In this document: positions 160 to 17,325 of the stretch, one piece after another
How the letters are laid out: the number at the start of each line of letters is the position of its first letter
How positions within the stretch are numbered: position 1 is the stretch's first letter
Assembly: GCA_013813905.1 (NCBI GenBank)
Contig: JACCQX010000164.1
Span: 1-17,325 of the forward strand
From: Chloroflexota bacterium
GTDB lineage: Bacteria > Chloroflexota > Limnocylindria > Limnocylindrales > CSP1-4
Direction of reading: 5' to 3'
Length of the DNA: 17,325 nucleotides
Made by a program: the position numbers and the translations under genes
Notes under the pieces: generated by a model
Seen by the model: only the letters and a program-made list of their open reading frames with translations
The model's database searches: none
Told to the model about the DNA's origin: nothing

Positions 160-177
160 CCCCGGCAGGCCGGGGGA
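160..177 (+). promoter_or_regulatory. Hairpin overlapping the yqeY ribosome binding site
   Basis: CCCCGG (160-165) and CCGGGG (170-175) form a perfect six-pair stem with a CAGG loop. The 3' arm runs into GGGGGAA (172-178), the only Shine-Dalgarno-like sequence before the GTG start of yqeY at 185. Folding would bury the binding site. Whether this regulates translation is inference; the pairing itself is directly visible. Confidence 0.4.
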
Positions 178-184
178 ACATCCG

Positions 185-658: not shown

Positions 659-668
659 GCACCCCTCG

Positions 669-2828: not shown

Positions 2829-2845
2829 CCGCCCGTGGGGCTTGA

Positions 2846-3064
2846 TCCGCGGCGCGTGCCCCCGTCACGATGTTCGCCCAAGAGGGATGCCTAAAACGTT
2901 TCGAGAGGTTCGTCGGGATCAGCTATGAACGTTCCCAACTCGAGGTGACTTACCTCTCTCCCACGGCAGTCTCGTGGCAGGACGGCGATCGACGTGTCCA
3001 GTGCGTCCTTCACTCCGGCGATGGGGAACCTCTCACGGGATCGATGCGTGGCCGGGGCGAGTAG
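2846..3064 (+). pseudogene. Remnant of a septum-formation (Septum_form) domain
   Basis: After an in-frame TGA (2843-2845) an open stretch runs to TAG 3062-3064; ATG 2870 would give 64 residues. The peptide reads CLKRFERFVGISYERSQL, then LSPTAVSWQDGDRRVQC, then LTGSMRGRGE. From memory of the family, this C..aF..yvG..y..S.l / Pt..SW..GdR.v.C / LtGS.rg pattern matches the C-terminal half of Septum_form-type domains of Actinobacteria and relatives. The N-terminal half, the membrane anchor and any signal peptide are absent. The stretch also overlaps the first codons of ybeY. It is most likely a decayed gene end. Alternatively it is a small expressed ORF that resembles the domain by descent only. 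Confidence 0.5.
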
Positions 3065-3692
3065 GAGCGCCCCGCCGCGACAGGCGACCAGCACCGTCTA
3101 CCTCCGCCCATGGCGGCTGGATCTGACGGATCGCTCAGATCGGAGGCCGATCGTGGCCAGGGCCGTCCATGCCCGCGACCTGGCGCAGGCCCTGGAGGCC
3201 GCTGGTGCACCGCAGCCTGCCACGGTCGGGTTGATCCTCACCAACGACGCGGAGCTCGCGGAACTGAACGAGCGGGCCATGGGTCGATCGGGCCCCACCG
3301 ATGTCCTGTCGTTCCCGCTCCTGCCGGCGGGTGCCTTCCCGCCGCATCCCGGCCAGCATCGACGGCGGCGGCCGGATGCTGGCACGGACGCCCAGCCGTT
3401 CGCCTTGCCGCCCGCGCAGCGCCTCCACCTGGGGGAGATCATCGTCTCGGTCGAGCGTGCGGTGGGGCAGGCCGACGAGGGACGAGGTGGACAGACGGGC
3501 GATGTGCGCTGGTCAGCTGCCGACGAACTCCGCCTGCTAGTGACCCACGGCGCCCTCCACCTGTGCGGCTGGGACCATGCCGAGCCGGAGGAAGAGGCCG
3601 CCATGCGTGCCCTGGAGCGAGATCTGTTGGGATGGAGCAACCGACCCGAGGCACCCCTCACTGACCCGAGGCGCCTTACTGTCATTCCCTGA
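3048..3692 (+). CDS. ybeY: Endoribonuclease YbeY (rRNA maturation factor)
   Basis: YbeY is a zinc-dependent RNase-like factor needed for 16S rRNA 3' maturation and 70S quality control. The zinc motif HGALHLCGWDH is intact (His residues 167, 171 and 177 counted from GTG 3048). The upstream family block NERAMGRSGPTDVLSFP is also present. Between TDVLSFP and LGEIIVSVERA there is an extra stretch of about 35 residues rich in Pro, Arg and His, where most YbeY proteins have under ten. The start is uncertain: GTG 2994, ATG 3021 and GTG 3048 are all in frame and none has a strong RBS. I chose 3048 because the expected first beta strand (STVYLRPWRLDL) lies just downstream and it minimises overlap with the preceding remnant. 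It follows the PgpH-like gene, as in Bacillus. Confidence 0.93.
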   Translation: MAGASRSAPPRQATSTVYLRPWRLDLTDRSDRRPIVARAVHARDLAQALEAAGAPQPATVGLILTNDAELAELNERAMGRSGPTDVLSFPLLPAGAFPPHPGQHRRRRPDAGTDAQPFALPPAQRLHLGEIIVSVERAVGQADEGRGGQTGDVRWSAADELRLLVTHGALHLCGWDHAEPEEEAAMRALERDLLGWSNRPEAPLTDPRRLTVIP

Positions 3693-4066
3693 TAAAGGCG
3701 ATCGTGACGGATGGCCTAAGGGGGTTTTCACACCACAGGGATCGATCGTCTACGGATGGGGGCGGTCGTATGTGACGGTTCAGGGCGCGCCATGGGCTGG
3801 GTGTCCCTCAAACCTCGTCCGGCTGGGCGTGGAGGAGCTCTTACCACCGCCTCCAACCGTAGGACGCGGAAACATCTGTCATCAGCTGGGTGACATGCTC
3901 CACCACCTCGGAGCGGCGCATTGCAGCTTCGACGGCACTCACCTGCGCCCCGGTTTACTATCCCGTTCGCGGGCCACTTTCCCAGGGAGAGGGATGTGGC
4001 CCCGTCGGCGTGCCCTGCGCACCGGCTCGCCAGCCGCTCGCCTGTCGCCGTCCATCAGAGGTCGCC
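3693..4066 (+). other. 374-nt gene-free spacer between ybeY and pth
   Basis: No convincing coding sequence is present: frames crossing it are continuations of neighbouring genes without family resemblance. It holds a long-range helix candidate (annotated separately) and TACTAT at 3956-3961, a possible -10 element. That box is followed at once by a perfect CCCG-TTCG-CGGG hairpin (3962-3973). The RBS of pth is at its end. I found no T-loop motif, no RNase P conserved blocks and no SRP domain IV motif. Confidence 0.6.
3724..3873 (+). ncRNA. Candidate structured RNA or pth-mfd leader
   Basis: Bases 3749-3766 pair with 3846-3863: 17 of 18 positions pair, with one A-A mismatch and two G-U wobbles. 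Inside, 3813-3820 pairs with 3825-3832 around a GGCT loop (one U-U mismatch). Outside, GTTTTC (3724-3729) can pair with GGAAAC (3868-3873). Together these make a plausible closed, branched RNA on the + strand, about 200 nt before pth. It matches no RNA family I recognise. It could be a free small RNA, a 5' leader, or chance pairing in GC-rich DNA. Covariation among relatives would decide. Confidence 0.3.
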
Positions 4067-4813
4067 GTGAAGATCGTCGTGGGGTTGGGCAACCCCGGAC
4101 GCCAATACGAAGGGACACGCCACAACGTGGGCTGGATGGTGCTCGACCGCATCGCGGAGCGGGCGGGTTGGAGCGGCAAGGCCAAGGCGCGTGATGCCGC
4201 CGCGGTCGCGCGCGGCCGGCACGGGGACCTGGATCTGGTGTTGGTGAAGCCGACCACCTACATGAACCTTTCGGGTTTGGCCGTGCGCAAGGTCCTCGCT
4301 CGAGAGCGCGCGCCGCTTGCCGACATGCTCGTCGTGGTGGACGACTTCGCCCTGCCCATGGGGCGGCTGCGACTTCGCGAGGAGGGCAGCGCGGGTGGCC
4401 ATAACGGGCTGCGCTCGATCATCGGAGAGATGGGCACCCAGGGATTCGCGCGCCTGCGGGTCGGTATCGGCGATCCGGGCCAGCGTGCCGTCGATCATGT
4501 CCTCAGCCGGTTCGGCCCGTCGGAACGCGCGGATCTGGAGCTCGTCCTGGACGCGGCGGCCGATGCCGTCGAGGACTGGGCGCGCGAAGGCACGTCGCGA
4601 GCCGCCAATCGATGGAACCCCTGGCGCCTGGGGGCCTCGGACGTCGGCGGGCCTGGCCACGGCGGACCCGTCGAGGCGACCGATCCGACGCTGCCCGCCC
4701 CGCCCACGCTTCGGATACCCGAGCGGGAGGGCAAGCCCGACAAGAACGGCATCGTGCGCACGCTCACCGGCTGGCGCAAGCTGCTTCCCCCGGGCCGCCG
4801 AGACCGCCCATGA
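4067..4813 (+). CDS. pth: Peptidyl-tRNA hydrolase
   Basis: Pth releases tRNA from peptidyl-tRNAs that fall off ribosomes. Catalytic and binding residues are visible: GLGNPG with N9, TRHNVGW with catalytic H19, KPTTYMNLSG, VVVDDFALP with D92/D93, GGHNGLRS with N113, and RLRVGIG. GTG 4067 puts the conserved KIVVGLGNPG at the true N-terminus and has AGAGG five bases upstream; the open frame before it is not family-like. The core ends near residue 190, and about 60 further residues form a Gly/Pro-rich linker closing with KNGIVRTLTGWRKLLP. That tail is not part of the standard fold. The stop overlaps the mfd start as ATGA, implying translational coupling. pth-mfd adjacency is also typical of Bacillus. 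Confidence 0.96.
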   Translation: MKIVVGLGNPGRQYEGTRHNVGWMVLDRIAERAGWSGKAKARDAAAVARGRHGDLDLVLVKPTTYMNLSGLAVRKVLARERAPLADMLVVVDDFALPMGRLRLREEGSAGGHNGLRSIIGEMGTQGFARLRVGIGDPGQRAVDHVLSRFGPSERADLELVLDAAADAVEDWAREGTSRAANRWNPWRLGASDVGGPGHGGPVEATDPTLPAPPTLRIPEREGKPDKNGIVRTLTGWRKLLPPGRRDRP

Positions 4814-7800
4814 CCGACGCTGCGGCGACGCGCACGAGGGGCAGGCGCGGACGCGATCGACACATCGCGGAGCGGGTCGCCTCGGGCACTGCCACCGGGC
4901 AGGCCACCAGCGCCAGCTCGCCTGGCGCGCTGCGGCCCCGTGTCCCGGACCTGGCCGCTCTGCCCGATCTGCTCGCCCGGTCGGGCGAGGTGGAAGCGCT
5001 GGTGGAGCGTTTCGCCCGAGCACGCGACGGCCGTGCCGCCGGGCTGCGTCATGTCGTCTACGCGAGCGTCCCGCACGGGGCCAAGACCTTCCTTGCCGCG
5101 GCCCTGGTCCGAGCGTCGGGCGAGCCGCTGGTCTGGCTGGCGCGTGACGCGGAGATCGCCGACCGTGTGGCCGAGGAGCTTCAGGCCTGGCTGGGGGACG
5201 CCGCCGCGGTCGTGACGCTGGAACCGCGCACCTCCCTCGCGTACGAGCGGTCGGAGCTGGTGCGAGACGAGAGTGCCGCCCGGGTCGCCGCGCTGGCTGC
5301 CTGGCGCTCCGGGCAAGGTGACGGGCCGGCACGCGGTCCGGCGCGCGTGCTGGTAACGAGCGTCCAGGCCCTGTTCCAGCGGACGCTTCCGCCCCAGGCA
5401 CTGCCGCAGGACCCTCTCACCATCCGACGCGGCGCCCGCCTGAGCCAGGAGCGAGTGCTGCGCTCGCTGCTCGAGCTGGGCTACGAAGCCGTCCCCGAGG
5501 TCGGCGGGCGCGGCGAGTTCACGCGCCGTGGCGGTATCGTGGACTGCTTCCCGGCCGGCCAGCCACTGCCGGTGCGCATCGAGTGGTTCGGTGATGAGAT
5601 CGACTCCCTGCGCGCCTTCGACCCCGCCGACCAGCGCGGCGTCGGGGCGATCGACGCGACCGTGCTGCTACCCGCCTCGGAGTTCCTCTTCCCCGCCAGT
5701 GAGCACGGACCGGAGGCGGCCGCCGCGTGGCTGGGCGATCGACTGGGCCGGCTGGGAGTCAGGCTCAGCGAACCGCTCCAGCAGGACCTGGCCCAGTTGG
5801 CCAACGGGCAGCTCGGCGATGCGGCCGAGATCTGGGCAGGCGTCCTCGCTCCGGCCTTCGGTCTCCAGCACCTGGGCGACGCGCTCTGGCTCATCGACGA
5901 GCCCCGCGACGTCCACGATGCCGGCGATTCGCTGCGCGCCCAGGCGGAAGAGCGGCGGGCCGAGATGGAGCGTGCCGGCGAGCTGCCCAAGGGTTGGGCC
6001 GAGGCCTACCCGGCGGCGCGGGAATGGAAGCGTGCTCTGCTCGAGGCACGCACCATTGAGCTCACCTGGGAGAGCGAGGCGGACGGCGCGCCGCCGGGTG
6101 GCAATCCCTTCGGCTGGCATGAGCCGGTGATGCCGCCACAGGCCATCACCTCGCTCGCTCCCACCATCAGCCGTTGGCGCCGCGAAGGCGCCCGCGTGGT
6201 GCTCACCTCCGATCAGTCGGCGCGACTCTCGGAGATCCTGGCCGAGGCGGACATGGTCACCGCGCCCACTGCGCATCTCGCTGAGCCGCCGCCACCGGGC
6301 GGCCTGGCGCTCGTCGAGCGAAGCCTCAACGGCGGCTTCGCGGGCGGCCCGGACGGGCTGGTCCTGGTCTCCGACCGTGAGCTCTTCGGCACGGTCCGCG
6401 TCCGTCGGCCGCGCGCCCTCCGCCGGGTCGTGCCGCGGGACCTGCTGGAGCGCCTGCAGCCAGGTGACATCGTGGTCCACATCGACCACGGCGTGGCCCG
6501 CTACGCCGGCCTCGTGCGACGCGGTGCCGGCGGCGAGGGCGGGGAGGAGCGGGACTTCCTGGAGCTGCACTTCCGCGACAAGGATCGCATCTGGGTCCCG
6601 GTGGAGCAGATCGACCGCGTATCTCGCTACGCCGGCGGAGAGCAGCCGGCTCTCTCCAAGCTCGGCGGCGGGGAGTGGCAGCGCGCCAAGACCCGCGTCC
6701 GCAAGGCGGTCGGGGATCTGGCCAAGGAGCTCCTGGAGCTGTACGCGGCGCGTGCCGGCGTGCGCGGCCGGGCCTTCGGCGAGGACACGCCGTGGCAATC
6801 GGAGATGGAGGCCGCCTTCCCCTACGAGGAGACTCCCGACCAACTGCGCGCCGCCCTGGAGGTCAAGGCCGACCTGGAGCACGAGCGCCCGATGGACCGG
6901 CTGGTCGTGGGCGACGTCGGTTACGGCAAGACGGAGGTCGCCATCCGCACCGCCTTCAAGGCCATCCAGGAAGGGACGCAGGTGGCTTTGCTGGTGCCCA
7001 CCACGGTGCTGGCGGCCCAGCACCTGGAGACCTTCAGCCAGCGTTTCGCGGCGTATCCCATCGCGGTGCGGATGCTCAGCCGCTTCGTGCCGCCGCAGGA
7101 GCAGCGCGACACGCTGGCGGGCCTGGCGGCCGGCTCGGTGGATCTGGTCATCGGCACGCACCGCCTGCTGTCGCGGGACATCCGCATCAAGGAGCTGGGC
7201 CTGGTCATCGTGGACGAGGAACAGCGCTTCGGGGTGGCCCATAAGGAGCGCCTGAAGCGACTGAAGACGGAGGTGCACGTCCTGACCCTCTCGGCCACGC
7301 CCATCCCGCGGACGCTGAACCTGGCCTTGGTCGGTGTGCGGGACATGAGCGTCATCGAGACGCCGCCGGAGGACCGCCTGCCCATCCAGACCCGCGTCGC
7401 GGAGGCATCCGCCGGGCTGGTACGCGATGCGATCAACCGCGAGCTGGATCGTGGCGGCCAGGTCTTCTTCGTGCACAACCGGGTGGAGACCATCGAGGCG
7501 CAGGCCGAGCAGCTCCGGCGGCTCCTGCCGCGGGCGCGCATCGTGGTGGCGCACGGCCAGATGGCCGAGGGCGGCCTGGAGAAGGTCATGATGGCCTTCG
7601 CGCGCGGGGACTTCGACGTGCTGGTCTGCACGACCATCATCGAGTCGGGGCTGGACATCCCCAACGCCAACACCATCATCATCGACCGGGCCGACGCGCT
7701 CGGACTGGCCCAGCTGTACCAGCTGCGCGGACGGGTCGGGCGCTCGAGCCGGCGGGCGTACGCCTACCTTCTCTACCGCCGGCGGGAGCGGCTGAGCGAC

Positions 7801-8544
7801 ATCGCGCGCAAGCGGCTCCAGGCAATCTTCAACGCCTCGGAGCTGGGTGCCGGCTTCCAGATCGCTCTCTCCGACCTGGAGATCCGCGGCGCCGGCAACA
7901 TCCTGGGTGGCGAGCAGCACGGCCACATGGCGGCCGTGGGCTTCGACCTGTACAAGCGCATGCTCTCCGAGGCGGTGGAGGAGGAGAAGGCCAGCTTCGA
8001 CGAGCGGCCAGCGGCCCACGCCCGGACCCAGACGGTCATCGACCTGCCGGTCGACGCCTACCTACCCGACGACTACGTGCCCGAGGAGCCCCAGAAGCTG
8101 GAGCTCTACCGCCGGCTGGGCCGCGTTGCCACTGAGTCCGAGCTGGGCGTGGTGCGCATCGAGCTGCTGGACCGCTTCGGTCCCGTGCCGCCACCGGTGG
8201 AGCGGCTGCTTGACGTGGCGCGGCTGCGCTTCACGGCGGAGGCGGCGGGCATCGCCTCGCTGTCCCGCGAGGACGGACAGCTCGTGCTGCGCTTCCCGCC
8301 GGACTGGTCACGTGGCGCGACGATGCGCGCCCTCGCGTCGGGCGGCCCGGCCGATCGTATCCCGGGCGTGGCGTCGGGCGGCGTGACGTTCGCCTCGAAT
8401 CAGGTGCGCGTGCGCCTGCCCCGCGATGCCGTGGCTGGCTGGGCCGCGACGCGCGCCGTCGTCGAGCGGCTCGCCCGACGGCTTCAGCCCGGTGCCCCTC
8501 GTCGCGCCGACCCGCAGCCCGTCGACCTCCAGCCCTCGGGCTAG
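4810..8544 (+). CDS. mfd: Transcription-repair coupling factor Mfd
   Basis: The 1244-residue protein carries all Mfd modules. The N-terminal UvrB-like part has a degenerate P-loop (PHGAKT) and [30 protein letters not shown]. The CarD-like RNA polymerase interaction domain lies around residues 545-620 ([15 protein letters not shown]). The RecG-like translocase has Walker A [10 protein letters not shown] (K707), DEEQ (802-805), [11 protein letters not shown] and [11 protein letters not shown] (968-978). A C-terminal TRCF domain follows. Mfd pushes stalled RNA polymerase off DNA lesions and recruits UvrA. The ATG start is set by the ATGA overlap with pth; the open frame further upstream belongs to pth shadow sequence. 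The protein is about 100 residues longer than E. coli Mfd, partly through a basic, low-complexity N-terminal extension of about 50 residues. The stop lies in a CTAG shared with the opposing gene. Confidence 0.97.
   Translation: [1244 protein letters not shown]
8439..8477 (+). repeat. 39-bp direct repeat, copy 1 (inside mfd 3' end)
   Basis: Copy 1 encodes the mfd segment [12 protein letters not shown]. It matches 9448-9486 at 35 of 39 positions without gaps. Two of the four differences are third-position synonymous changes and two change the residue. The two copies bracket the sulfotransferase gene. Confidence 0.55.
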
Positions 8545-9362
8545 AGGTGCCCGAAGTCGGGCCACAGGGTCAGGTCCAGGTCCGGCACGATGTCCTTCAG
8601 GCGGGCGACATCCGCCTGGTATCCGTCCACCAGTCGCCTGTGCTGCTCCGGATCGAGGTCGGTCTTGCCCACGGTCGTGGTGTTGACCGGCAGCCTCATG
8701 ACCTCCGGCTCCGGAAGCCACTGGGGCAGACCGAGGAACGACAGTGTCCGTCCGTACTGATCGGCGGGCTCAGACAGGCAACGCTCGAACTGGAGCACGA
8801 GCAGCCGGTCTCGCCCGAAACGCCCAATCAGGCGCTCCAGTTGACGAGCGTAGAGGCCGCGCTCCACGGCCTCGCTCTCCCCACGCTCGTCCTCCGGCGG
8901 CCGGCCCGTCCGGCGACGCGTGACGTACCACTGCGACAGGCCGGAGCGGTAGCGCTCCACGGGATCGCGCAGGATGGCGACGAGGCGAGCCTCGGGAGCG
9001 GCACGTTGGATGGCCTCTGCCACGGAGGGGATGGCCATGTAGCGCGGCGTCCACTCGCCGGCCAGGAGGCCCGGCGGGCGAGGGAAGTGGCGGTGGTACT
9101 CGGCGACATCGTCATCGTTCATCGGCCGGTGCTGGAATCGCGACAGGAAGTGAAGCTCCTTTGCGTGCGCGCTGCCCTCCACGCCCGGGTGTGCCGCAAG
9201 GAGAGCCCACCACCAGCTGGTGCCGGACTTCTGAGTGCCGACCCCGATGAAGTCGGGCGGTCCCGTGCGCCATCCAGGCGGGCACTCGGGAGGAGGGATC
9301 TCGCGGTGCAACGGGGGGCGCTCAGGCATCGGTGAACGGACTCGGCGGAACAGGGGCGACAT
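8541..9362 (-). CDS. PAPS-dependent sulfotransferase
   Basis: This is a sulfotransferase-fold protein that would move a sulfo group from PAPS to an unknown acceptor. The 5'-phosphosulfate loop is GTQKSGTSWWWALLAAHP (residues 42-59), followed by KELHFL. The 3'-phosphate site is RDPVERYRSGLSQW, with R132 and S140 in the canonical places. The length (273) is normal for compact bacterial members. ATG 9362 gives the longest frame. ATG 9329 (residue 12) would leave room for a leader if the -10-like box at 9371-9376 is used, and is a serious alternative. The acceptor cannot be read from sequence. It is the lone minus-strand gene between mfd and the XdhC-like gene and may be an acquisition. Confidence 0.88.
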   Translation of the reverse strand: MSPLFRRVRSPMPERPPLHREIPPPECPPGWRTGPPDFIGVGTQKSGTSWWWALLAAHPGVEGSAHAKELHFLSRFQHRPMNDDDVAEYHRHFPRPPGLLAGEWTPRYMAIPSVAEAIQRAAPEARLVAILRDPVERYRSGLSQWYVTRRRTGRPPEDERGESEAVERGLYARQLERLIGRFGRDRLLVLQFERCLSEPADQYGRTLSFLGLPQWLPEPEVMRLPVNTTTVGKTDLDPEQHRRLVDGYQADVARLKDIVPDLDLTLWPDFGHL

Positions 9363-9366
9363 GTGG

Positions 9367-9419
9367 CGAGCTTATCGCGGGCCCGGGAAGCGCACCGGGG
9401 GAAGGCGATAATGAGCTCG
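9367..9419. promoter_or_regulatory. Divergent inverted repeat with outward -10-like boxes
   Basis: CGAGCTTATCGC (9367-9378) is the inverted counterpart of GCGATAATGAGCTCG (9405-9419), apart from a three-base insertion in the second arm. Read outward, each arm gives GCGATAA...AGCTCG. Each therefore carries a -10-like box: GATAAT at 9407-9412 toward xdhC and GATAAG at 9376-9371 toward the sulfotransferase. It sits in the divergent spacer, as expected for paired promoters or a two-fold operator. I see no clear -35 elements. Confidence 0.4.
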
Positions 9420-9424
9420 TGCTG

Positions 9425-9505
9425 ATGTGTCAGTCCCTGCTCTCGGCCTGGGCTGCGACGCGCGCCGCCGTCAAGCGGCTGGCCCGGGCCCCTGCCCGCC
9501 CATGA
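9425..9505 (+). CDS. 26-codon mini-ORF coupled to xdhC
   Basis: ATG 9425 opens a frame of 26 codons, MCQSLLSAWAATRAAVK and a basic tail ending PARP. It stops at TGA 9503-9505, overlapping the xdhC ATG (9502) as ATGA. Its middle resembles residues of the mfd C-terminus (the 39-bp repeat). It could be a leader peptide giving translational coupling, or a meaningless remnant. No strong RBS precedes it. Confidence 0.25.
   Translation: MCQSLLSAWAATRAAVKRLARAPARP
9448..9486 (+). repeat. 39-bp direct repeat, copy 2 (before xdhC)
   Basis: Copy 2 lies just upstream of the XdhC-family gene. In the frame of the small ORF 9425-9505 it reads WAATRAAVKRLA, the same frame and nearly the same peptide as in mfd. 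This suggests a duplicated mfd 3' fragment rather than unrelated DNA. Confidence 0.55.
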
Positions 9506-10563
9506 TCGAGGTGCTGGACGCCCTGGAGCGCTGGCGCCGCGAAGGGGTGCCGGTCGGGCGGGCGGTGCTGGTCCGTGCCTCCGGCTCCGCGCCGCGACCG
9601 GAGGGAGCGGTCCTGATCGCTACCGCGGACGGTCGGGTCGCCGGCTCCGTGAGCGGCGGCTGCGTGGAGGCTGCCGTGGTGGTGGACATCGACGAGGTGC
9701 GCCGCAGCGGCCGGGCACGCGTCACCGAATACGGCTTCAGCGACGCGACGGCGCGCGATGCCGGACTGGCCTGTGGCGGCCGGATCGAGGTGCTGGTGGA
9801 GCCCCACGTGCGACCGGAGATCTTGTCAGCGGCCACTGCGCGCGGCCGAGCGGTGGTCACGGCACTGCCCGCCGAGGACGCGCTGGGTCCGGCCGGCGTG
9901 GTCGTGTCGGAGGACGGCAGTGTGGAAGGCTCCACGGGGGATGCCGCGGTGGACCGGGCGCTGGTCGGGGCAGCGCAGGAGGCGCTCGAGGTCGGTCGGT
10001 CCGGGCTCGTCGAGGTGGGCAGCCGCTCGTACTTCGTGGAGGTCTTCGCCAACCGACCGCGGCTGGTCATCGTGGGCGCCGTGCAGGTCGCCATCCCGCT
10101 GGTGTCCCTGGCAGGCATCCTGGGCTACGAGACGATCGTCATCGACGGGCGTTCGGCCTTCGCGACCCCAGAGCGCTTCCCAGGTGTTGACCGCCTCATC
10201 GTCGGCTGGCCGGACGACGTGGCCGGGCAGATCGCGCTGGGACCGGCGGACTCGGTAGCCGTGCTGAGCCACGACCCCAAGTTCGACGAGCCGGCCATCG
10301 TGGAGGCGCTGCGGTGCGGCTGTCGCTACGTGGGCGCCATCGGCAGCCGCCGCACGCAGGCCGATCGGCGGACGCGGCTGCATGCAGCAGGTCTCACCGA
10401 CGCAGACCTCGAGCGGCTGCGCGGCCCCATCGGACTCGACCTGGGCGGCCGGGACGCGGCGGAGATGGCGCTGGCCATCATGGCCGAGGTGATCGCGGCG
10501 CGGTTCGGTGGATCGGGCGCGCCCATGCGCGATGCGGTGACCCTTCAGGCGTCCAGGCGGTAG
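9502..10563 (+). CDS. xdhC: XdhC/CoxI family protein
   Basis: XdhC/CoxI proteins help mature molybdenum hydroxylases, such as xanthine and CO dehydrogenases, by handling or sulfurating the Mo cofactor. The 353-residue protein shows the N-terminal domain (RASGSAPRPEGAVLI, GSVSGGCVEAAVV, ACGGRIEVLVEP). The C-terminal Rossmann-like domain follows (PRLVIVGAVQVA, IDGRSAFATPERFP, YVGAIGSRRTQ, PIGLDLGGRDAAEMALAIMAEV). The usual GAGH-type loop reads GAVQVA. ATG 9502 is the start that begins the family-like sequence (MIEVLDALERW); the frame continues upstream to GTG 9427, but that part is low-complexity. No molybdenum hydroxylase gene lies in the window, so its client is unknown. Its 3' end overlaps the opposing hydrolase remnant by 19 bases. 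Confidence 0.9.
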   Translation: MIEVLDALERWRREGVPVGRAVLVRASGSAPRPEGAVLIATADGRVAGSVSGGCVEAAVVVDIDEVRRSGRARVTEYGFSDATARDAGLACGGRIEVLVEPHVRPEILSAATARGRAVVTALPAEDALGPAGVVVSEDGSVEGSTGDAAVDRALVGAAQEALEVGRSGLVEVGSRSYFVEVFANRPRLVIVGAVQVAIPLVSLAGILGYETIVIDGRSAFATPERFPGVDRLIVGWPDDVAGQIALGPADSVAVLSHDPKFDEPAIVEALRCGCRYVGAIGSRRTQADRRTRLHAAGLTDADLERLRGPIGLDLGGRDAAEMALAIMAEVIAARFGGSGAPMRDAVTLQASRR

Positions 10564-11396
10564 CTCTCGCCGCGCCGCAGGTAGCGCACGCGGTCGGTCA
10601 GACCGGCCGCCTCGACGGCCGCCTGGAAGTCGGATAGTGGCGACTTGAAGACGTCGTAGTCGTCGTAGTGGATGGGCATGGCCACTCTGGGCTCGACGGT
10701 GCGCAGGAGCTCCACGCCCTGCTTGTCGTCCATCGTGACCAGCATCCCCAGCACGCGGCCGCCACCGAGGTGCAGCATGGCCAGGTCGATGCCCGGGAAG
10801 CGCCGGGGAATCTCCTTCAGATCGTCGATCACCAGCGTGTCGCCCGTGATGTAGAGCCGCTTGCCGCTGTCGGCCGTCCCAGTTCCGAACTCCAGGATGG
10901 TGCCGATCACATCGGGCAACGCGACCGAGACGACCGGCGGCCCGTGGCGGCCGGGCGTGGCCGTGATGCGCAAGCGGGCATCACCCTTCTCGACGGACAG
11001 CTCGTCCCACCGCTCCAGAGGATGCACGTTCGTGAAGCCACGCTCGGTGAGCGCCTTGGCTGCCTCACCCGTGGTCACGATGGGCAGTGACTTGTCCAAC
11101 TCGCGCTCTGCCACCTGGTCGAAGTGGTCGCCGTGCAAGTGGGACAGGATGATGAGGTCGATTGGTGGCAGGTCGCCGATGTCCATGGCCGGATCGGTCA
11201 GCCGGGTGGCGGTCATGCCCTAGCCGATGTCCGCCTTCTCATCCCTGTGCACGAAGTTGGGGTCGGTCAGGACGGTAAGCCCGGCGTATCGGATCAGCAG
11301 GGTCGCCGTGCCGATGAACATGACCGACCCGCCGGGGTCGGAGGAGCCGTTCGACGGCAGTACGATCTTGTCCCTGCGGTTCGACGTGTCATTCAC
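10545..11396 (-). pseudogene. MBL-fold metal-dependent hydrolase, split by in-frame TAG
   Basis: The same minus-strand frame carries both halves of one metallo-beta-lactamase-fold hydrolase. The N-terminal half reads VMFIGTATLLIRYAGLTVLTDPNF, then HRDEKADIG. TAG follows at 11222-11220, then GMTATRLTDPA and the metal motif SHLHGDHFD. Further fold elements are TPGRHGPP, ITGDTLV, AMLHLGGG and PIHYDD. In relatives I recall, the interrupted spot reads LGYGL, so TAG most simply replaces a Tyr codon by one substitution. GTG 11396 (GGGAG upstream) is the likely start; ATG 11438 is also open. The downstream half could restart at ATG 11216 but lacks the first strands. TAG serves as an ordinary stop elsewhere here, so recoding is unlikely. 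It is a recent pseudogene, a sequencing error, or weak readthrough. Confidence 0.82.
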
Positions 11397-11539
11397 ATGG
11401 GCACTCTCCCGGACGTCACGACACGTCGCGCCTGCCACGGGACCGGCGAACGTGTCCGGTTCGTTGCAGCGGCCGTCGGCCTCGGTCAGCCTTGCCAGTC
11501 GAGTCAGCCGCTCTCCGGTGAGCCGCGCTGGCCGTGCGC

Positions 11540-11545
11540 TAGACT
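11540..11545 (+). promoter_or_regulatory. Possible -10 box for the apt operon
   Basis: TAGACT lies 51 bases before the GTG of apt, in the 200-nt divergent spacer 11397-11596. It resembles a sigma-A -10 element. No good -35 hexamer is seen 16-18 bases upstream, so this is a weak call. Nothing else stands out in the spacer. Confidence 0.25.
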
Positions 11546-11596
11546 GGCGCCCTTCGGCTGCCCAAGCCGTCCCTACCCCAGAGGGAAGCCAGTTCC

Positions 11597-12118
11597 GTGT
11601 CTGTTGAGACCCTGCGCGAACGGATCCGAGAGATCCCCGACTTCCCCAAGCCGGGCATCCTCTTCTACGACATCACCACCCTGCTGAAGGACGCCGACGC
11701 CTTCAAGGAGGCCATCGACCTACTGACCGAGCCGTTCCGGGACACGCCGGTGGACGTGGTCGTGGGCATGGAGTCACGCGGCTTCATCTTCAGCGCACCG
11801 ATGGCTTACCAGCTCGATGCGGGCTTCGTGCCGGTGCGCAAGCTGGGCAAGCTGCCCGCGGAGACCGTCAGCGTCGAGTACGCCCTGGAGTACGGCACGA
11901 ACACGCTGGAGATCCACAAGGACGCCATCGCGCCCGGGCAGAAGGTGCTCATCGTCGACGACCTGCTGGCCACCGCCGGCACCGTGCTGGGCACCATCGA
12001 GCTCGTCACGCAGCTGAAGGCGGAGGTGGTCGGCCTGGCGTTCCTGGTCGAGCTGCTCTTCCTGAAGGGCCGGGACCGCCTTCATGGCCACGAGATCCAC
12101 AGCGTCATCCAGTACTGA
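11597..12118 (+). CDS. apt: Adenine phosphoribosyltransferase
   Basis: Apt converts adenine and PRPP to AMP and pyrophosphate in purine salvage. The 173-residue length is standard. Family features are IPDFPKPGILFYDITTLL near the N-terminus, GMESRGFIFSAPMAY, the KLGKLP and VEYALEYGTNTLEIH blocks, and the PRPP-binding motif VLIVDDLLATAGT (residues 117-129). The GTG start has AGAGGGA about ten bases upstream. It opens a four-gene same-strand cluster whose last member, ahcY, generates adenosine, so adenine salvage is a sensible partner. Confidence 0.96.
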   Translation: MSVETLRERIREIPDFPKPGILFYDITTLLKDADAFKEAIDLLTEPFRDTPVDVVVGMESRGFIFSAPMAYQLDAGFVPVRKLGKLPAETVSVEYALEYGTNTLEIHKDAIAPGQKVLIVDDLLATAGTVLGTIELVTQLKAEVVGLAFLVELLFLKGRDRLHGHEIHSVIQY

Positions 12119-13418
12119 CCCGGTGGCTGCCGGACCCGGATCGGACGAGGTCGATCTGGGGCGCCGCAGCTTCTTCCGGCACTTCGGGCGGAGTGCACTG
12201 CTGACCGCGGGCCAGGTGGCCGGTGCCGCCGAGGCGGTCCGGCGCGGGACCTCAGACGTGGCCTCCGGTCTCTTCGATCCGAGTTCCGGCGGGAGTGAGC
12301 CAGCGCCCGACGCCGCGAGTTCGATCGCGGCCCGGTCCAGCGCCGCCTACCGCAGTCCCTACCGACTCGACGGCGACACGCTCTTCCTGCTCGACCAGCG
12401 CGGCCTGCCGGATCGGTTCGACTCCATGGCCTGTCACGACGGCCGCGAGGTCGCGCGTGCCATCCGACTGGGCGCCGTCCGTGGCGGAGCGACCCTGGGG
12501 CAGGTCGCGGCCTATGGCGTGGCCCTCAGCGCTCAGCGCCACCGCGAGCGCCGTCCGAGCGCGGTCCGCGGTGAGATCGGCGCCGACATGTCGAGTCTGC
12601 GCAGCGCCCGCCCCTCGGCGCATGCGTTGAGAGCGGCCCTGGATCGTCTTCGTGCGTGCCAGGCTGCGCTGCCGCCGGACGCCGATCCGGAGGTGCTCGC
12701 GCAAGCGCTGCGCGCTGAAGCGGATGCCATCGCCAGTGAAGCGATGCTCGATCATGCGGCGCTGGCCGGTCACGGCGCGGCCTGGCTGCCGAGATCCGCT
12801 GGACGGCCGCTCCAGCTGCTCCTTCACGGCGAGAGCGGTCCCATGGCCGGCGGCATGGTGGGCACGGGCATGGCCGTCATCCAGCGACTCGTCGCTGAGG
12901 GTCGCCCGGTCCACGCCTGGGTGACGGAAGGACGCCCCACCGGTGAGGGTGCCCGGATCACGACCTGGGAGCTGCGGCACGCGGGCGTGCCCCATACGGT
13001 CCTGCCTGATGCGGCCGTGGGTTGGCTGCTCCAGCACCAGCCGCCGGACGCCGTGCTGCTCAGCGCGGAGTGGCTCTCCGCCAACGGGGACGCCGCCGTC
13101 TTCGCGGGTGGCGGTGCCATCGCGGCGCTGGCCGCGAGCCGCTCAGTGCGCCAGGTGCCAGTGCTGCTGTGCGCGCCGGCCGCCTCGTTCGATGGCGCGA
13201 CGCCGAGCGGAGCCGCCATCCCCGACGACCTGCGCACGGGTCGGGAGGCCGGTTCGCTGATCCATCCCGGCACGCCGCCGGGAACGCACGTGCTCACGCC
13301 GGCCGTGGACGTGGTGCTGGCGGAGCACGTGGCGGCGGTCGCCACGGCGGCGGGCGTGGTGAGGCCTCCCTTCGACGCGTCCCTGTCCCTCGCCATGACT
13401 GCCCCGGTCGCCGGCTGA
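12084..13418 (+). CDS. MtnA/eIF2B-like protein with altered active site and Tat-like N-terminus
   Basis: From about residue 90 the 444-residue protein follows the MtnA/eIF2B fold. It shows LFLLDQRGLPDRFDSM, AIRLGAVRGGATLGQVAAYGVAL, then GTGMAVIQRL, WVTEGRPTGEGARITTWEL and SANGDAAVFAGGGAIAALA. MtnA isomerises methylthioribose-1-phosphate in methionine salvage, using a Cys in a THCN-type motif and an Asp in GADRI. Here these read LLHGESG (Gly249 at the Cys place) and SAEWL (Glu329 at the Asp place), so canonical catalysis is doubtful. Residues 25-50 (LGRRSFFRHFGRSALLTAG) look like a twin-arginine signal or hydrophobic anchor, unexpected for a cytosolic enzyme. ATG 12084 overlaps apt by 35 bases with GGGA upstream; GTG 12123 is an alternative. 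It may be a repurposed sugar-phosphate isomerase or a non-enzymatic regulator. Confidence 0.75.
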   Translation: MATRSTASSSTDPVAAGPGSDEVDLGRRSFFRHFGRSALLTAGQVAGAAEAVRRGTSDVASGLFDPSSGGSEPAPDAASSIAARSSAAYRSPYRLDGDTLFLLDQRGLPDRFDSMACHDGREVARAIRLGAVRGGATLGQVAAYGVALSAQRHRERRPSAVRGEIGADMSSLRSARPSAHALRAALDRLRACQAALPPDADPEVLAQALRAEADAIASEAMLDHAALAGHGAAWLPRSAGRPLQLLLHGESGPMAGGMVGTGMAVIQRLVAEGRPVHAWVTEGRPTGEGARITTWELRHAGVPHTVLPDAAVGWLLQHQPPDAVLLSAEWLSANGDAAVFAGGGAIAALAASRSVRQVPVLLCAPAASFDGATPSGAAIPDDLRTGREAGSLIHPGTPPGTHVLTPAVDVVLAEHVAAVATAAGVVRPPFDASLSLAMTAPVAG

Positions 13419-14287
13419 TGGCGGCCATCACGCGCACCGGTGCGGCCAACAGCCAGACCCTGGAGGTGCGCGCCACGCGCGACCGCGAGTCGCTGCGCGG
13501 GTTCCTGGAGCAGGACCGGCTCTTCGCCGCCTACGCCATCTGCGACCTCGAGGAGCGCGAGTTCCCACGTACGCGCTGGGGCATCGCCATGGACCGCGGT
13601 CAGGTCGTGGCGGTCGTGCTGGAGTACTCCGGTCTCTCACCCCAGCCGCTGTTCGTGATGGGCGACGATGAGGGCGTGGCGGCCATCCTGGAGGATGTCA
13701 TCCATCCGCGAACGGCCTATCTCGCCGCCCTGACCCATTCCCTGCCGGCGGTGGAGCGGGTCTACCGGATGGAAGCTGGGCCGCCCATGGTCCGCATGTG
13801 GGTCGATCGAGCCAAATTCCTGCCTGTCCCGCAGATCGCCACGCGCCTGATGCCGGCAGAGATCGGCGACCTCAACCGGCTGTACGACCTGGGCTTCTCG
13901 GCCTGGTTACCGGCCGACGCCATCCGCCACGGCGTCTACTACGGCGTCCGCGTGGAGGGCCGGCTGGTGGCGGCCGCGGGAACGCACGTCATCGGCCGGG
14001 ACGCTCGTCTGGGCGTGGTGGGTAACGTGATGACGCACCGCGAGCATCGCAGCCAGGGTTTCGCGAAGCTGACCACGGGCGCCGTCACCGCCGAGCTGCT
14101 GCGCACCTGCGATCAGGTGGTGCTCAACGTCCGTTCCGACAACCCGCCCGCGCTGGCTGCGTACCGAGCGTTGGGCTATCAGGAGCACGTCCGCTTCGAG
14201 GAGCGCATCGTGCACCGTCGCGGCGCGCTGTGGGATAGCATCACCCTGCCATTCCGGCGTTGGTTCCCCCATAGCAAGGAGTCCTGA
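13418..14287 (+). CDS. GNAT family N-acetyltransferase
   Basis: This 289-residue protein has a poorly conserved N-terminal half and a C-terminal GNAT domain. The acetyl-CoA-binding motif A region is GVVGNVMTHREHRSQGFAKLTTGAV, whose R/Q-x-x-G/A type loop reads HRSQGFAK. Motif B-like sequence follows as LNVRSDNPPALAAYRALGYQ. The two-part layout resembles FR47- or DUF4081-type acetyltransferases. It would acetylate an amine on an unknown substrate. ATG 13418 overlaps the stop of the MtnA-like gene by one base (TGATG), and the stop is immediately followed by the ahcY start, so it is co-translated with both. Its role in the cluster is unknown. Confidence 0.82.
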   Translation: MAAITRTGAANSQTLEVRATRDRESLRGFLEQDRLFAAYAICDLEEREFPRTRWGIAMDRGQVVAVVLEYSGLSPQPLFVMGDDEGVAAILEDVIHPRTAYLAALTHSLPAVERVYRMEAGPPMVRMWVDRAKFLPVPQIATRLMPAEIGDLNRLYDLGFSAWLPADAIRHGVYYGVRVEGRLVAAAGTHVIGRDARLGVVGNVMTHREHRSQGFAKLTTGAVTAELLRTCDQVVLNVRSDNPPALAAYRALGYQEHVRFEERIVHRRGALWDSITLPFRRWFPHSKES

Positions 14288-15622
14288 GTGACCCAGACCC
14301 CGGTCCTTTCCCCTCAGATGCAGCAGACCTCCGGTGACGCCGCCAACGGCCAGACCGCTTCGCTTCCCCCCCACGACGTCATCGACCTCGGCCTGGCCGC
14401 CGAGGGGGTTCGCCGCATCGAATGGGCGGAACGGGAGATGCCCGTCCTCCGGCTCATCCGCGAACGCTTCGAACGCGAGCGACCGCTAGATGGCCTGCGC
14501 ATCGGTGCCTGCCTCCACGTCACCACCGAGACCGCGAACCTCATGCGCACGCTGAAGGCCGGCGGCGCGGAGGTATCGCTGTGCGCCTCCAACCCGCTCT
14601 CCACCAAGGACGACGTGGCCGCGGCCCTCGTCGCGGAGTACGGCATCAGCACCTTCGCCCGCCGCGGCGAGGACCGCGACACGTACTACCGGCACCTCAA
14701 CTCGGTGGCCGACACGCAGCCTCAGGTGACCATGGACGACGGCTGCGACCTCGTCTCGCTGCTGCACCAGGAGCGGCCGCAGCAGCTGGAGCAGATCCTG
14801 GCCGGCACGGAGGAGACGACCACCGGCGTCATCCGCCTCAAGGCCATGGCCGCGGACGGCGCACTGGCTTTTCCCGTCGTGGCCGTCAACGAGGCCAGGA
14901 CCAAGCACCTCTTCGACAACCGCTACGGCACCGGCCAGTCCACCGTGGACGGCATCCTGCGCGCCACCAACGTGCTGTTGGCGGGTCGCAAGGTAGTCAT
15001 CGCCGGTTACGGCTGGGTCGGACGCGGCATCGCCTCGCGCTTCCGCGGCATGGGTTCGCACGTGGCCATCACGGAAGTGGAGCCCATCCCCGCCATCGAG
15101 GCACTGATGGACGGCTTCGTGGTCATGACCGGCCTGGAGGCCGCCGCGTGGGGTGACGTGTTCATCACCGCGACCGGCAACCTCAACGTCTTCCGACGTG
15201 AGCACTTCGAGAAGATGCGCGACGGCGCGATCATGGCCAACAGCGGCCATTTCGACGACGAGATCGACCTCAAGACGCTACGCGAGATGGCCGGTGGCCA
15301 GGTTCGCGAGGTCCGCCGCGATGTCGAGGAGTTCGTGGTCGAGGGGCGCCGGCTGCACGTCGTGGCGGAGGGGCGGCTGGTGAACCTGGCCACGGCCGAG
15401 GGCCACCCGGCAGCCGTGATGGACATGTCCTTCGCCAACCAGGCCCTGTCCGCGGAGCACGTGGCCAGGAACCACGACACGCTAGCCAACCAGGTCTACG
15501 TCGTGCCCGAGGACATCGACCGCGAGGTCGCCCGCCTCAAGCTGGTGGCACTGGGCGTGGACATCGACACTATGACCCCCGAACAGGTGGCCTACGTGGC
15601 CTCCTGGCAGAGCGGCACTTAA
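14288..15622 (+). CDS. ahcY: Adenosylhomocysteinase (SAH hydrolase)
   Basis: AhcY splits S-adenosylhomocysteine to adenosine and homocysteine using bound NAD, relieving product inhibition of methyltransferases. Substrate-domain signatures are visible: [10 protein letters not shown] (D150/D151), [10 protein letters not shown] (E175/E176), [25 protein letters not shown]. The NAD site is [17 protein letters not shown] (from residue 240), followed by [11 protein letters not shown]. At 444 residues it ends in [14 protein letters not shown] and lacks the Lys-Tyr tail (KPDHYRY type) of eukaryotic and many bacterial enzymes, resembling the shorter archaeal/Thermotoga-type form. The GTG start directly follows the upstream TGA with AAGGAG ahead. 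It closes the apt-led cluster. Confidence 0.96.
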
Positions 15623-15664
15623 CGGCCGCGCAGCTTACCGCCGGAGGTCGCTGACTAGCGGCCG
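15623..15664. terminator. Inverted repeat between convergent genes
   Basis: CGGCCGC (15623-15629) and GCGGCCG (15658-15664) form a perfect seven-base inverted repeat. They span the 32-base gap between the ahcY stop and the stop of the opposing PLP enzyme. It could act as a shared terminator stem, but the 28-base loop and the absence of T-runs make this weak. Confidence 0.25.
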
Positions 15665-16836
15665 GCCGGCTCCAACAGGCGCGCCACGACCGCCACGGCG
15701 TCGGCCACTTCCTGCTCCGTGTTGTAGAAAGCCGGGGAGAAGCGGACGATACCGGGCCGCGCGTCCACCACGAAGCCCTCCCTGGCGAGGGCCGCCACGA
15801 TCGGCGCCGGCTCGGCGGCCTCGATGGCCACGATGCCGGCGCGTCGGGTGTCGTCGCGAACAGCACGCACCGGCAGCCCGGCACCATCGGACAGCTTGAT
15901 CAGCTGCGCGCCCAGGTCGATGGTCCGCTCATGGATGGCTTCCACGCCGATCTCCCGCACCAGCGACAGGCCGCCTCGGGCGAGGAAAGCCGAGGGCACG
16001 GCGGGCGTGCCCATCTCGAATTTTCGCCCGTCGGGGGCGAAGTCCAGGTCGCCCACGTCGAAGTCGAACTGCCGTGCGCTGGAGAACCAGCCGGTGGTGG
16101 TCGGGTCGAGTGCCTCGCGGAGTCCGGTCCGTAGCCATAGGAATGCGTTGCCGGGCCCCCCGAAGAGCCACTTCAGCGTGCCCGAGACGTAGATGTCGAC
16201 GCCCAGCCTGGCCACGTCGGTGGGGATGAGGCCGGTGGCCTGATACGCGTCGAGGAGCAGCAGCGCGCCGCGCTCCCGGCACAGCGCGGCCAGCCCAGCC
16301 ACGTCCTGCACCGCGCCCGTGGTGAAGTACACGTGGCCCGTGGCGACCAGGGCAGTGCGCTCGTCGATGGCTGCCTCGAACTCCTCGAGCGGCACGGTCA
16401 GCCCGTCGGGAGAGGGCAGGATGACGACCTCGATGCCCAGCGGCGCCCGGGCCAGCCACTGGTGGCCAAGCGTCGGGAAGTCGAGCGCCGTGGTGATGAC
16501 ACGGGTGCGCGGTGGTCCCTTGTCACCCCTGTGGATCGGATCGAGCGCCGACGCCACCGAGGCCAGCGCCACCGACACATTGGGCGCCAGGGCGATCTCC
16601 GAGCCGGGACGCCCGATGACCCAGCCAAAGTCCTCGCGCAGCGCCGCCAGCTCGTCCATCCAATGTCCATACCAGGCGCTGGCACCCAGCCGGTCCCATT
16701 GGCCCAGGAACTCGTCGAGCTTGGCACGGCCGCGCGCCGGGAGAGCTCCCAGCGAGCAGGTGTTGAGGTATCTGGTCGCGCTCAGGAGCGGGAACTCAGC
16801 GCGGTAACGCAGGAGCTCGGGATGGCGTGCCGTCAT
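15655..16836 (-). CDS. Class V aminotransferase / kynureninase-like PLP enzyme
   Basis: The 393-residue fold-type I PLP enzyme opens with RYLNTCSLGALPARG, typical of class V members. It contains GHVYFTTGAVQDVAGL, LLLDAYQATGLIPTDV with the pyridine-binding D196, and YVSGTLKWLFGGPG with the PLP lysine K222. Then WFSSARQFDFD and FEMGTPAVPSAFLARGGL follow. The last two blocks recall kynureninase (aromatic amino acid breakdown) and cysteine-desulfurase-like proteins. Substrate cannot be fixed from sequence, and no other tryptophan-degradation gene is in the window. ATG 16836 lies in a perfect 12-base palindrome (16834-16845), and no clear RBS precedes it. It probably shares a transcript with the sulfotransferase upstream, 72 bases away. 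Confidence 0.85.
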   Translation of the reverse strand: MTARHPELLRYRAEFPLLSATRYLNTCSLGALPARGRAKLDEFLGQWDRLGASAWYGHWMDELAALREDFGWVIGRPGSEIALAPNVSVALASVASALDPIHRGDKGPPRTRVITTALDFPTLGHQWLARAPLGIEVVILPSPDGLTVPLEEFEAAIDERTALVATGHVYFTTGAVQDVAGLAALCRERGALLLLDAYQATGLIPTDVARLGVDIYVSGTLKWLFGGPGNAFLWLRTGLREALDPTTTGWFSSARQFDFDVGDLDFAPDGRKFEMGTPAVPSAFLARGGLSLVREIGVEAIHERTIDLGAQLIKLSDGAGLPVRAVRDDTRRAGIVAIEAAEPAPIVAALAREGFVVDARPGIVRFSPAFYNTEQEVADAVAVVARLLEPAGR

Positions 16837-16845
16837 CCCGGGATG
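16834..16845. repeat. 12-bp perfect palindrome over a start codon
   Basis: CATCCCGGGATG reads the same on both strands and includes the minus-strand ATG of the class V PLP enzyme. It could be an operator or translational hairpin, or chance. The rest of the spacer (16846-16908) shows only GC-rich short palindromes such as CCCCGGGG. Confidence 0.3.
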
Positions 16846-16908
16846 GTCGGTGATACGTGGGGCAGGCCCAGGCCAGCTCCGCGGCCGCCTCCTGGCCGCT
16901 CCCCGGGG

Positions 16909-17325
16909 TCAGAAGGAATAGCCATAGCGATCCAGCTCTGCGCGCCAGGCCCGTTCGACCGTGCGCCGGGCTGACTCCGTGTAGTACTCGCGGTAGTGGC
17001 GGCGACCTTCCGTCACGTTCACCCGCGGCAGCTCGATCGAGCCGGGGTAGCCGATGTCCTTGAGCAGCGTCCGAAAGTCATCCTGAAGGTTCTCGAAGCG
17101 CAGGACGCGGTCGACCCCTTCGGTATGCGCGAAGGAAGCGACCGGATGCGACCTGAATCGGCTGGCCAGACCATGGCGCCCCCAGCGATGAGCGATCCAT
17201 TCCGGGAAGGTGTGCGTGGCGCTGAACTCCAGCTGCCTCACCCGAGCGGGGCTCATGATCTGATCGGGGCGCTCCAGGGTGCCCGCCACGACGGCCCGGT
17301 TCTTCTGCCACATGGAGACAAGGTC
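16909..17325 (-). CDS. Sulfotransferase family protein, C-terminal part
   Basis: The frame is open from the window edge (DLVSMWQKNR, the end of an RNPWDxLVS-like 3'-phosphate-binding motif) to TGA 16911-16909. About 138 residues are visible. They contain FSATHTFPEWIAHRW, VDRVLRFENLQDDFRTLL and PRVNVTEGRRHYREYYTESARRTVERAWRAELDRYGYSF-type sequence. The last block, with its final FGY/YGYSF, is typical of the Sulfotransfer_2-like family (carbohydrate or glycan sulfotransferases). The PAPS 5'-phosphosulfate loop would be beyond the window. ATG 17313 is internal, not the real start. It is a different family branch from the sulfotransferase after mfd. Confidence 0.75.
   Translation of the reverse strand, partial: DLVSMWQKNRAVVAGTLERPDQIMSPARVRQLEFSATHTFPEWIAHRWGRHGLASRFRSHPVASFAHTEGVDRVLRFENLQDDFRTLLKDIGYPGSIELPRVNVTEGRRHYREYYTESARRTVERAWRAELDRYGYSF

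Follow-up and report, generated by a model that had tools for sequence, protein, structure and literature searches.

An MtnA-fold protein without the catalytic residues of methylthioribose-1-phosphate isomerase, bearing an apparently portable N-terminal helix, in bacteria of the order Limnocylindrales

Methylthioribose-1-phosphate isomerase (MtnA; TIGR00512; structures 1t9k and 2yvk) shares its fold with ribose-1,5-bisphosphate isomerase (R15Pi; TIGR00511; 5yfj) and belongs to the same superfamily as the alpha, beta and delta subunits of eIF2B. The human MtnA, MRDI/MRI1 (4ldq, 4ldr; Mediator of Rho Dependent Invasion in the title of the structure), keeps the catalytic Cys and Asp and additionally has a catalysis-independent role. 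In R15Pi the same Cys and Asp are called essential and a Cys135Ser variant is inactive, and eIF2B alpha carries Ala or Gly at the place of the MtnA-type catalytic Cys (PMC5789824); the eIF2B regulatory subunits are non-catalytic, and sugar phosphates occupy the former active site of the alpha subunit (PMC8187479). Here we describe a gene, designated X, in a 17,325-nt stretch of DNA from a Limnocylindrales bacterium (Chloroflexota; assembly GCA_013813905.1, contig JACCQX010000164.1, positions 1 to 17,325, forward strand) that is referred to in its entirety as the window. X is an MtnA-fold protein that lacks the catalytic Cys, the catalytic Asp and the phosphate-end Lys of the family, and it may best be understood as a pseudo-isomerase that has been retained, much as in eIF2B, to bind a ligand or serve as a scaffold while docked to a partner, a reading to which a probability of roughly 0.55 is given.

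X matches the Pfam IF-2B family (PF01008) at E 5.6e-32, which places it in the fold and superfamily of MtnA, and the core of its AlphaFold2 (AF2) model, mostly above 90 in pLDDT (predicted local distance difference test), is matched by Foldseek to Thermotoga MtnA (1t9k; TM-score, TMt, 0.92 at 2.2 Å), Bacillus MtnA (2yvk; TMt 0.90) and R15Pi (5yfj; TMt 0.81). Sequence comparison with structure chains in HMMER gives 5.9e-39 for MtnA structures versus 1.3e-4 for eIF2B alpha. Likeness to MtnA extends over the whole fold, many residues of the sugar site and a neighborhood of adenine and S-adenosylmethionine (SAM) by-product salvage genes, whereas the missing Cys, Asp and Lys, an extra N-terminal helix with its linker and a score of 203.8 bits on the NCBIfam model salvage_mtnA (TIGR00512; equivalog cut-off 279 bits) set X apart. 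R15Pi, which has the same fold, keeps the Cys and Asp that are Gly249 and Glu329 in X, and X reaches 67.1 bits on TIGR00511 against a cut-off of 314.1. Twenty-three structure chains matched X, and the five alignments that were printed and used for residue placement (1t9k, 1t5o, 6a34, 2yrf and 4ldq) agree in putting Gly249 at the Cys of [HIY]CN[AT]G and Glu329 at the Asp of GADR. An earlier, sequence-only reading of this DNA had recognized the MtnA scaffold and these two replacements, and both observations are borne out, although its list of pocket changes was incomplete: the changes from Gln to Glu288, from Arg to Trp330 and from the Asn-Lys of NGDTANK to Val339-Phe340 had been overlooked. The Lys of this last motif is taken here to be the phosphate-end Lys of MtnA. 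Sequencing or assembly error was rejected as the source of the altered residues because the same changes recur in many independent sequences.

Proteins bearing the N-terminal helix of X fall into two groups, designated f1 and f2, the window protein belonging to f1. In an alignment of X with 109 homologs (110 rows), position 249 holds Gly in 83 rows, Cys in 21, Asp in 4, and Thr and Ala in one row each, and position 329 holds Glu in 65, Asp in 44 and Ser in 1; Gly is by far the commonest replacement of the Cys among Cys-less f1 proteins (83/89). Seventy-seven helix-bearing proteins are altered at Cys/Asp, and among them Glu329 occurs in 56, Trp330 in 51 and both in 45, while R291 is kept in 76, E282 in 74, R176 in 70 and R133 in 58. 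The Lys of NGDTANK is found in none of the 77, yet it is still present in genome row G082, where the pocket is intact except for the change of Cys to Gly. Within the 45 proteins chosen for having both Glu329 and Trp330, Gly249, His248 and Trp295 are present in 45/45, Arg291 in 44 and an acidic residue at 288 in 42. Judged from these alignments, the pocket of the window's group looks rewired, with conserved residues of its own, rather than randomly decayed.

The start of the helix is more uniform than the pocket, R27, R28, F30 and F31 being invariant in all 90 of the 110 rows that span them; Arg at position 54 is found in 77/90. The same helix is present on proteins with a wholly canonical pocket (HCNTG, GADR, NGDTANK), and it follows that the helix predates the loss of the catalytic residues. 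In a tree of 89 rows, computed in a quick and a careful version with the trait columns 249 and 329 removed (the fragments G091, G104:C100, G107:C141 and G101, the PNPOx match G118:C246 and 10 f2 rows were left out), the helix clade forms one group (bootstrap/SH-aLRT 100/99) beside 19 helix-less canonical MtnAs, and 26 of the 89 rows combine the helix with Cys and Asp. The fewest changes of the Cys are five in the quick and six in the careful tree, and they are read as losses because the 19 rows outside the helix clade all have Cys and Asp. Comparison shows that the ancestor of X was a helix-bearing MtnA of this order whose Cys/Asp/Lys pocket was intact, and that the window lineage retained fold, helix and locus while its pocket was rewired, Cys being replaced by Gly, Gln by Glu, Asp-Arg by Glu-Trp and Asn-Lys by Val-Phe.

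Cys-less relatives of X are under purifying selection. The ratio of nonsynonymous to synonymous substitution rates (dN/dS; Nei-Gojobori, hand-chosen close pairs from relatives other than the window species) is 0.086-0.334 in Cys-less f1 X (8 pairs), 0.141-0.213 in Cys-bearing f1 X (6 pairs) and 0.061-0.139 in f2 X (15 pairs), the last of which evolves faster than the neighboring Apt and GNAT and is plainly constrained still. Since the gene is kept under selection although its catalytic residues have been lost, and the helix is retained, X probably has a second job, non-enzymatic or changed. A new or regulatory role had already been suggested from the sequence, and an activity other than isomerization of methylthioribose-1-phosphate is indeed likely.

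The state of the pocket is accompanied by the state of the salvage pathway. Across 60 helix-bearing rows from 59 genomes (G125 is counted twice, and G029, in which the N-terminus is masked, was taken as helix-bearing), MTA phosphorylase (MTAP) was not found for 25/34 Cys-less versus 1/26 Cys-bearing rows, and a second, canonical MtnA accompanies 17/34 versus 0/26. One or other of these states holds for 31/34 Cys-less and 1/26 Cys-bearing rows (Fisher 1.5e-12, a test that ignores kinship). Six genomes whose MTAP matches lie below the cut-off (G062, G082, G091, G099, G128 and G149), of which four contribute rows, were treated as MTAP-bearing; the gap between these matches and weaker PNP-family matches (up to 98 bits) is a matter of judgement, and the lists of genomes with MTAP or a second MtnA were compiled by hand.

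Among 151 genomes of the class (profile matches at E up to 0.001), PF01008 was detected in 65 and the helix in 70. Helix profile A2 finds the helix of the window in its own genome at E 1.2e-18, this sequence being 1 of the 26 in the profile, and in samples of the phylum, with scoring limited to the top 18-24 candidates of each genome, the helix was seen only in this order (18/301 genomes with A2 and 33/400 with profile A5), in every case in f1 or f2. Relatives of f1 X include proteins named Candidatus Limnocylindrales. The order of genes in the window, apt, X, GNAT and ahcY tightly packed on one strand, is widely kept in f1: at loci with room, apt lies directly upstream in 57/58, GNAT downstream in 56/58 and ahcY beyond in 50/52, the misses being in G125 (a second copy) and G118 (the PNPOx locus). 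The corresponding counts in f2 are 16/16, 15/15 and 0/10. A fixed place between apt and ahcY, as proposed in the sequence-only reading, holds as regards apt and, in f1, the wider neighborhood, whereas the GNAT gene separates X from ahcY and in f2 the latter is missing from the locus.

The f2 group represents the far end of the divergence. X is found in 16/16 f2 genomes, which are of 0.9-1.2 Mb and whose X relatives include proteins named Candidatus Limnocylindrus; six of the loci were located via apt, and each has a helix match with profile A5. Only 1/87 f2-type proteins carries a precomputed PF01008 assignment, and 22/29 match this family at E up to 1 (best 8.6e-6). Profile-profile comparison aligns f1 with f2 X over nearly the whole length (E 6.8e-20), and an AF2 model of f2 X (mean pLDDT 68.8) retrieves MtnA structures first in Foldseek (6a34, 4.9e-15), the best ten matches having TMt 0.58-0.68 and root-mean-square deviations of 5.4-7.3. 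Most pocket residues of f2 X are gone and the gene is retained. Identity between Cys-bearing f1 and f2 is 0.33 in the helix and 0.24 in the core, and between the window's group and f2 0.27 and 0.22; the idea that the helix is the most conserved part of X was set aside, the difference from the core being small. The linker (residues 67-92) shows the lowest identity of the regions compared, both within and between f1 groups. At f2 loci L103, L104, L109 and L111, the series apt-X-GNAT is followed by mannose-1-phosphate guanylyltransferase-like and phosphoglucosamine/phosphomannomutase-like genes instead of ahcY.

The helix also occurs outside the MtnA fold. A profile that contained only f1 X helices matched a second open reading frame (ORF) in G118 at E 1.8e-7, which encodes a PNPOx_N protein (6.9e-12) with the same helix. 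This protein and 100 homologs begin the helix with RRxF[LFIM] or RRSIL in 85/101, and several of the other 16 sequences begin inside it. Two further PNPOx-like helix proteins were detected in G014 and G135, the latter without a Pfam match at E up to 0.1 and assigned by eye. The PNPOx-like (PF01243) proteins P0197-P0296 share with X the RRxF[FL] helix and a variable linker and differ in their unrelated split-barrel domain and in their loci. As far as sequence comparison can tell, the helix is a portable module common to X and this unrelated family. The sequence-only reading had missed this sharing, along with the members of the clade that have an intact active site and the repeated loss.

How these observations might fit together can be set out as follows. 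The helix-bearing isomerase would already have had a second, helix-dependent role, and the chemistry would have been lost several times while the other role was kept. X would no longer isomerize methylthioribose-1-phosphate; its remodelled pocket may still bind a ligand derived from a sugar or nucleotide, and through a flexible linker the RRxF[FL] helix would dock the protein to a partner, either another protein or a membrane surface, which at least one more family of soluble proteins in these bacteria presumably uses as well. The likely output would be a regulatory or scaffolding effect linked to the operon of adenine/SAM by-product genes in which X is made. Because the pocket itself is gone in f2, only the docking and scaffold part could act there. 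The nearest known parallel to X is eIF2B alpha, in which the catalytic Cys is likewise replaced; X differs in being bacterial, in its origin from MtnA inside one order, in its RRxF[FL] helix and in that no link to a translation factor was seen. Orthology of X to eIF2B subunits is not supported, MtnA structures being far better matched by sequence, and the tree holds no eIF2B rows. We know of no helix of the RRxF[FL] type on MRDI. A more specific and more tentative proposal, which we consider possible and no better than that, is that the helix is an undescribed order-specific docking module which gathers MtnA-like and PNPOx-like proteins on one partner or membrane site, with X the counterpart of an eIF2B regulatory subunit, a dead metabolite-sensing isomerase that signals via its docked helix.

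Several points weigh against the pseudo-isomerase reading. Both roles it gives to X, docking and ligand binding, are predicted, with a putative partner and a putative ligand, and the kept pocket residues R133, R176, E282 and R291 would also fit a new catalytic activity. AF2 models residues 25-63 as a single helix at a low pLDDT of 47-61. All 14 loci read in genus g3 (L194-L207) have cleanly lost X from its place next to apt and GNAT; its function can therefore be dispensed with in this genus, and GNAT does not depend on it. The tree program warns of long branches, some of which are Cys-less rows, and when kinship is allowed for about 3/5 independent pairs agree with the association between Cys loss and pathway state, none opposes it and two are equal (sign test p 0.25, not significant). 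Exceptions to this association comprise G050, G082 and G086, which have MTAP and a Cys-less X and in which a second MtnA was not found; G101, a member of the window's genus, with MTAP at 299 bits and a Cys-less X fragment; and G148 (65% complete), which is Cys-bearing with MTAP not found. Since the genomes are drafts, absences may also be gaps.

A new enzymatic activity remains the main rival, although we regard it as somewhat unlikely. It supposes that the pocket formed by Gly249, Glu288, Glu329 and Trp330 catalyzes another reaction, with Glu329 as acid/base and a derivative of a sugar or nucleoside as substrate. The conservation of the new residues and of the four kept ones among the 77 altered proteins is what such an enzyme would display, as is the closeness of the model to 1t9k. 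At the former Cys position, however, neither a nucleophile nor a second acid/base is visible, and the phosphate-end Lys is missing from all 77. Glu329 itself varies, being D in many Cys-less relatives, and the gene stays in f2 where little of the pocket is left.

That X still isomerizes methylthioribose-1-phosphate and works without the Cys/Asp pair is considered very unlikely. The unchanged fold and apt-X-GNAT-ahcY locus are compatible with it, and in G050, G082 and G086 the Cys-less X is the only MtnA found beside an MTAP, with G101 having MTAP as well. The essential nature of Cys and Asp in the sister isomerase R15Pi, where Cys135Ser is inactive (PMC5789824), argues to the contrary, as does the loss of the Lys of NGDTANK in the window and throughout the altered proteins of the homolog set. 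MTAP above the cut-off was not found in G087 (92% complete), a mate of the window in its genus.

The N-terminus, GRRSFFRHFG followed by a hydrophobic stretch, had been described as resembling a twin-arginine (Tat) signal. The motif is there, RRSFFRHFG at residues 27-35 with RRxF[FL] at residues 27-31; what follows resembles an amphipathic helix more than a core that is hydrophobic throughout, with hydrophobic residues at 31, 34, 38, 42, 45, 49, 52, 59 and 63 (a spacing of about 3-4) and polar residues between them. The RRxF[FL] helix probably does not act as a Tat signal, and export or membrane anchoring through it is, on the comparisons that follow, even less likely than a surviving isomerase. 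In its favor, RRxFF/RRxFL fits the Tat core motif, with both Arg invariant in the 90 rows, and TatC is encoded in 136/151 genomes including that of the window. The window protein has R32 and R36, the 15 residues that follow its motif are free of acidic ones, and its best 15-residue hydropathy of 1.22 lies not far under the 1.30-1.59 of four Escherichia coli Tat signals; because of the lack of acidic residues, the Tat reading is less far off for this protein than for the family. Acidic residues among the 17 that follow the motif occur in 47/89 f1 and 81/81 f2 proteins and in 75/78 PNPOx-type pattern matches (the 78 include a chance match, P0297, and a match elsewhere in the sequence, P0214), compared with 0/14 Tat controls (20 loci fetched, 18 with an RR, 14 of these correctly placed as judged by eye), and median hydropathy is 1.75 in controls versus 1.22 in f1 X. 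The predicted helix is about 39 residues long; by predicted starts the RR lies beyond residue 35 in 43/90, and 9/72 frames (one duplicate and one PNPOx frame included) lack a start codon within 35 amino acids upstream. No Tat model was matched at E up to 1 among the best 25 of 26 NCBIfam families for 58 members, nor any Pfam Tat signal by X at E up to 1. PF10518 yields candidate Tat signals in 32/41 related genomes at E up to 0.1, none of which lies at a located X locus; within the window's genus, G000, G087 and G124 gave no match. The Cys-bearing members, moreover, would need a phosphorylated substrate of the cytosol. TatC was not found in seven g3 genomes; missing TatC was discarded as evidence, because G080 (91% complete) has no TatC match yet six PF10518 matches, which makes its gap uninformative.

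Least likely of all is that X is a relic heading for loss and retained by its operon position, as the clean loss in g3, the diverged copy without helix motif in G147, the faster change of f2 X relative to Apt and GNAT and the f2 copy of G094, alignable to its kin over only 235/406 residues, might suggest, since dN/dS of 0.06-0.33 already strains this reading, 16/16 streamlined f2 genomes keep the gene and the RRxF motif core is invariant in the aligned sets.

One clade and one locus hold a graded series, from an intact helix-bearing isomerase through loss of the Cys alone (G082) and a rewired pocket (the window) to an erased pocket on a kept scaffold (f2). The passage from enzyme to non-enzymatic regulator, of which eIF2B is the example in this superfamily, usually has to be inferred from comparisons between domains of life, whereas in this clade the intermediates survive and can be tested. 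A small N-terminal helix that is easily taken for a Tat signal is common to two unrelated families. No account of a Cys-less MtnA in Chloroflexota or of the helix was found among the entries listed (up to 15 for each search) from the open PMC literature, and neither is mentioned in passages of PMC6302742, PMC13212565, PMC8576121 and PMC9160962.

The coordinates of X, its features and its neighbors are collected in the table. A later start of X is possible at an in-frame GTG at 12123.

Table. Coordinates of gene X, its neighbors and altered residues in the window, and of PNPOx-like proteins with the helix at other loci
Feature	Position	Strand	Basis or remark
apt, adenine phosphoribosyltransferase	11597..12118	+	Directly 5' of X; NCBIfam TIGR01090 230 bits, above cut-off
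X, MtnA-fold gene	12084..13418	+	444 amino acids; ATG at 12084; 35-nt overlap with apt
N-terminal RRxFF helix module	12153..12278	+	About residues 24-65; profile A2 match, AF2 helix
Variable linker	12282..12359	+	Residues 67-92; pLDDT about 47-54
MtnA core	12360..13388	+	Residues 93-435; Pfam, HMMER, AF2, Foldseek
Gly249 (GGC), place of catalytic Cys	12828..12830	+	HMMER alignments, codon reading
Glu288, replacing Gln of RPxxQGAR	12945..12947	+	Alignment
Glu329-Trp330, replacing catalytic Asp and next Arg	13068..13073	+	Alignments; Glu329 codon GAG at 13068-13070
Val339-Phe340, replacing Asn-Lys of NGDTANK	13098..13103	+	Alignment
GNAT acetyltransferase	13418..14287	+	Acetyltransf_1 6.6e-9; start shares 1 nt with X stop
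ahcY, adenosylhomocysteinase	14288..15622	+	Abuts GNAT; TIGR00936 614.7 bits, above cut-off
PNPOx-like protein with RRxF[FL]-type helix and variable linker	L113:3791-4531	-	
PNPOx-like protein with RRxF[FL]-type helix and variable linker	L264:2105-3181	+	
PNPOx-like protein with RRxF[FL]-type helix and variable linker	L265:1861-2661	-	

Three candidate leads to a partner or setting for X were pursued and dropped. A major facilitator superfamily (MFS) gene adjoins 2/3 of the PNPOx-like loci and pointed to no partner. Co-variation of GNAT and Apt with X (GNAT E69 is present in 97% of 36 sequences with X and is Gln in 14/14 g3 sequences without it, and two Apt columns likewise stand out) rests on too few columns and is confounded by kinship. 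A role of X as microcompartment or encapsulin cargo was rejected, bacterial microcompartment (BMC) shell genes being found in 20/151 genomes, 0/4 of the window's genus and 0/16 of f2, and encapsulin (PF04454) in 0/151.

Many Cys-less and even f2 proteins among P0017-P0196 have been named methylthioribose-1-phosphate isomerase by JGI, a likely misannotation, and many database entries with this name lack the catalytic residues, which calls for caution in their use. At loci L130, L131, L132 and L135 a separate helix-less canonical MtnA stands beside genes for a class II aldolase, a RuBisCO-like/MtnW-like protein, a DeoR/LsrR-type regulator and a sugar ABC transporter, an arrangement that resembles a locus of the dihydroxyacetone phosphate (DHAP) shunt type. 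A gene of the MFS transporter family (EmrB-like, under the model cut-off) is present at 29 loci, mostly upstream of apt, and is not in the window. G090 encodes, beside the copy at the apt locus, a second and more diverged helix-bearing MtnA-like paralog (L266:1826-3958, minus strand) with an ERRHFLR helix, a GAEWLGADGS pocket and a PF01008 match at 1.7e-10.

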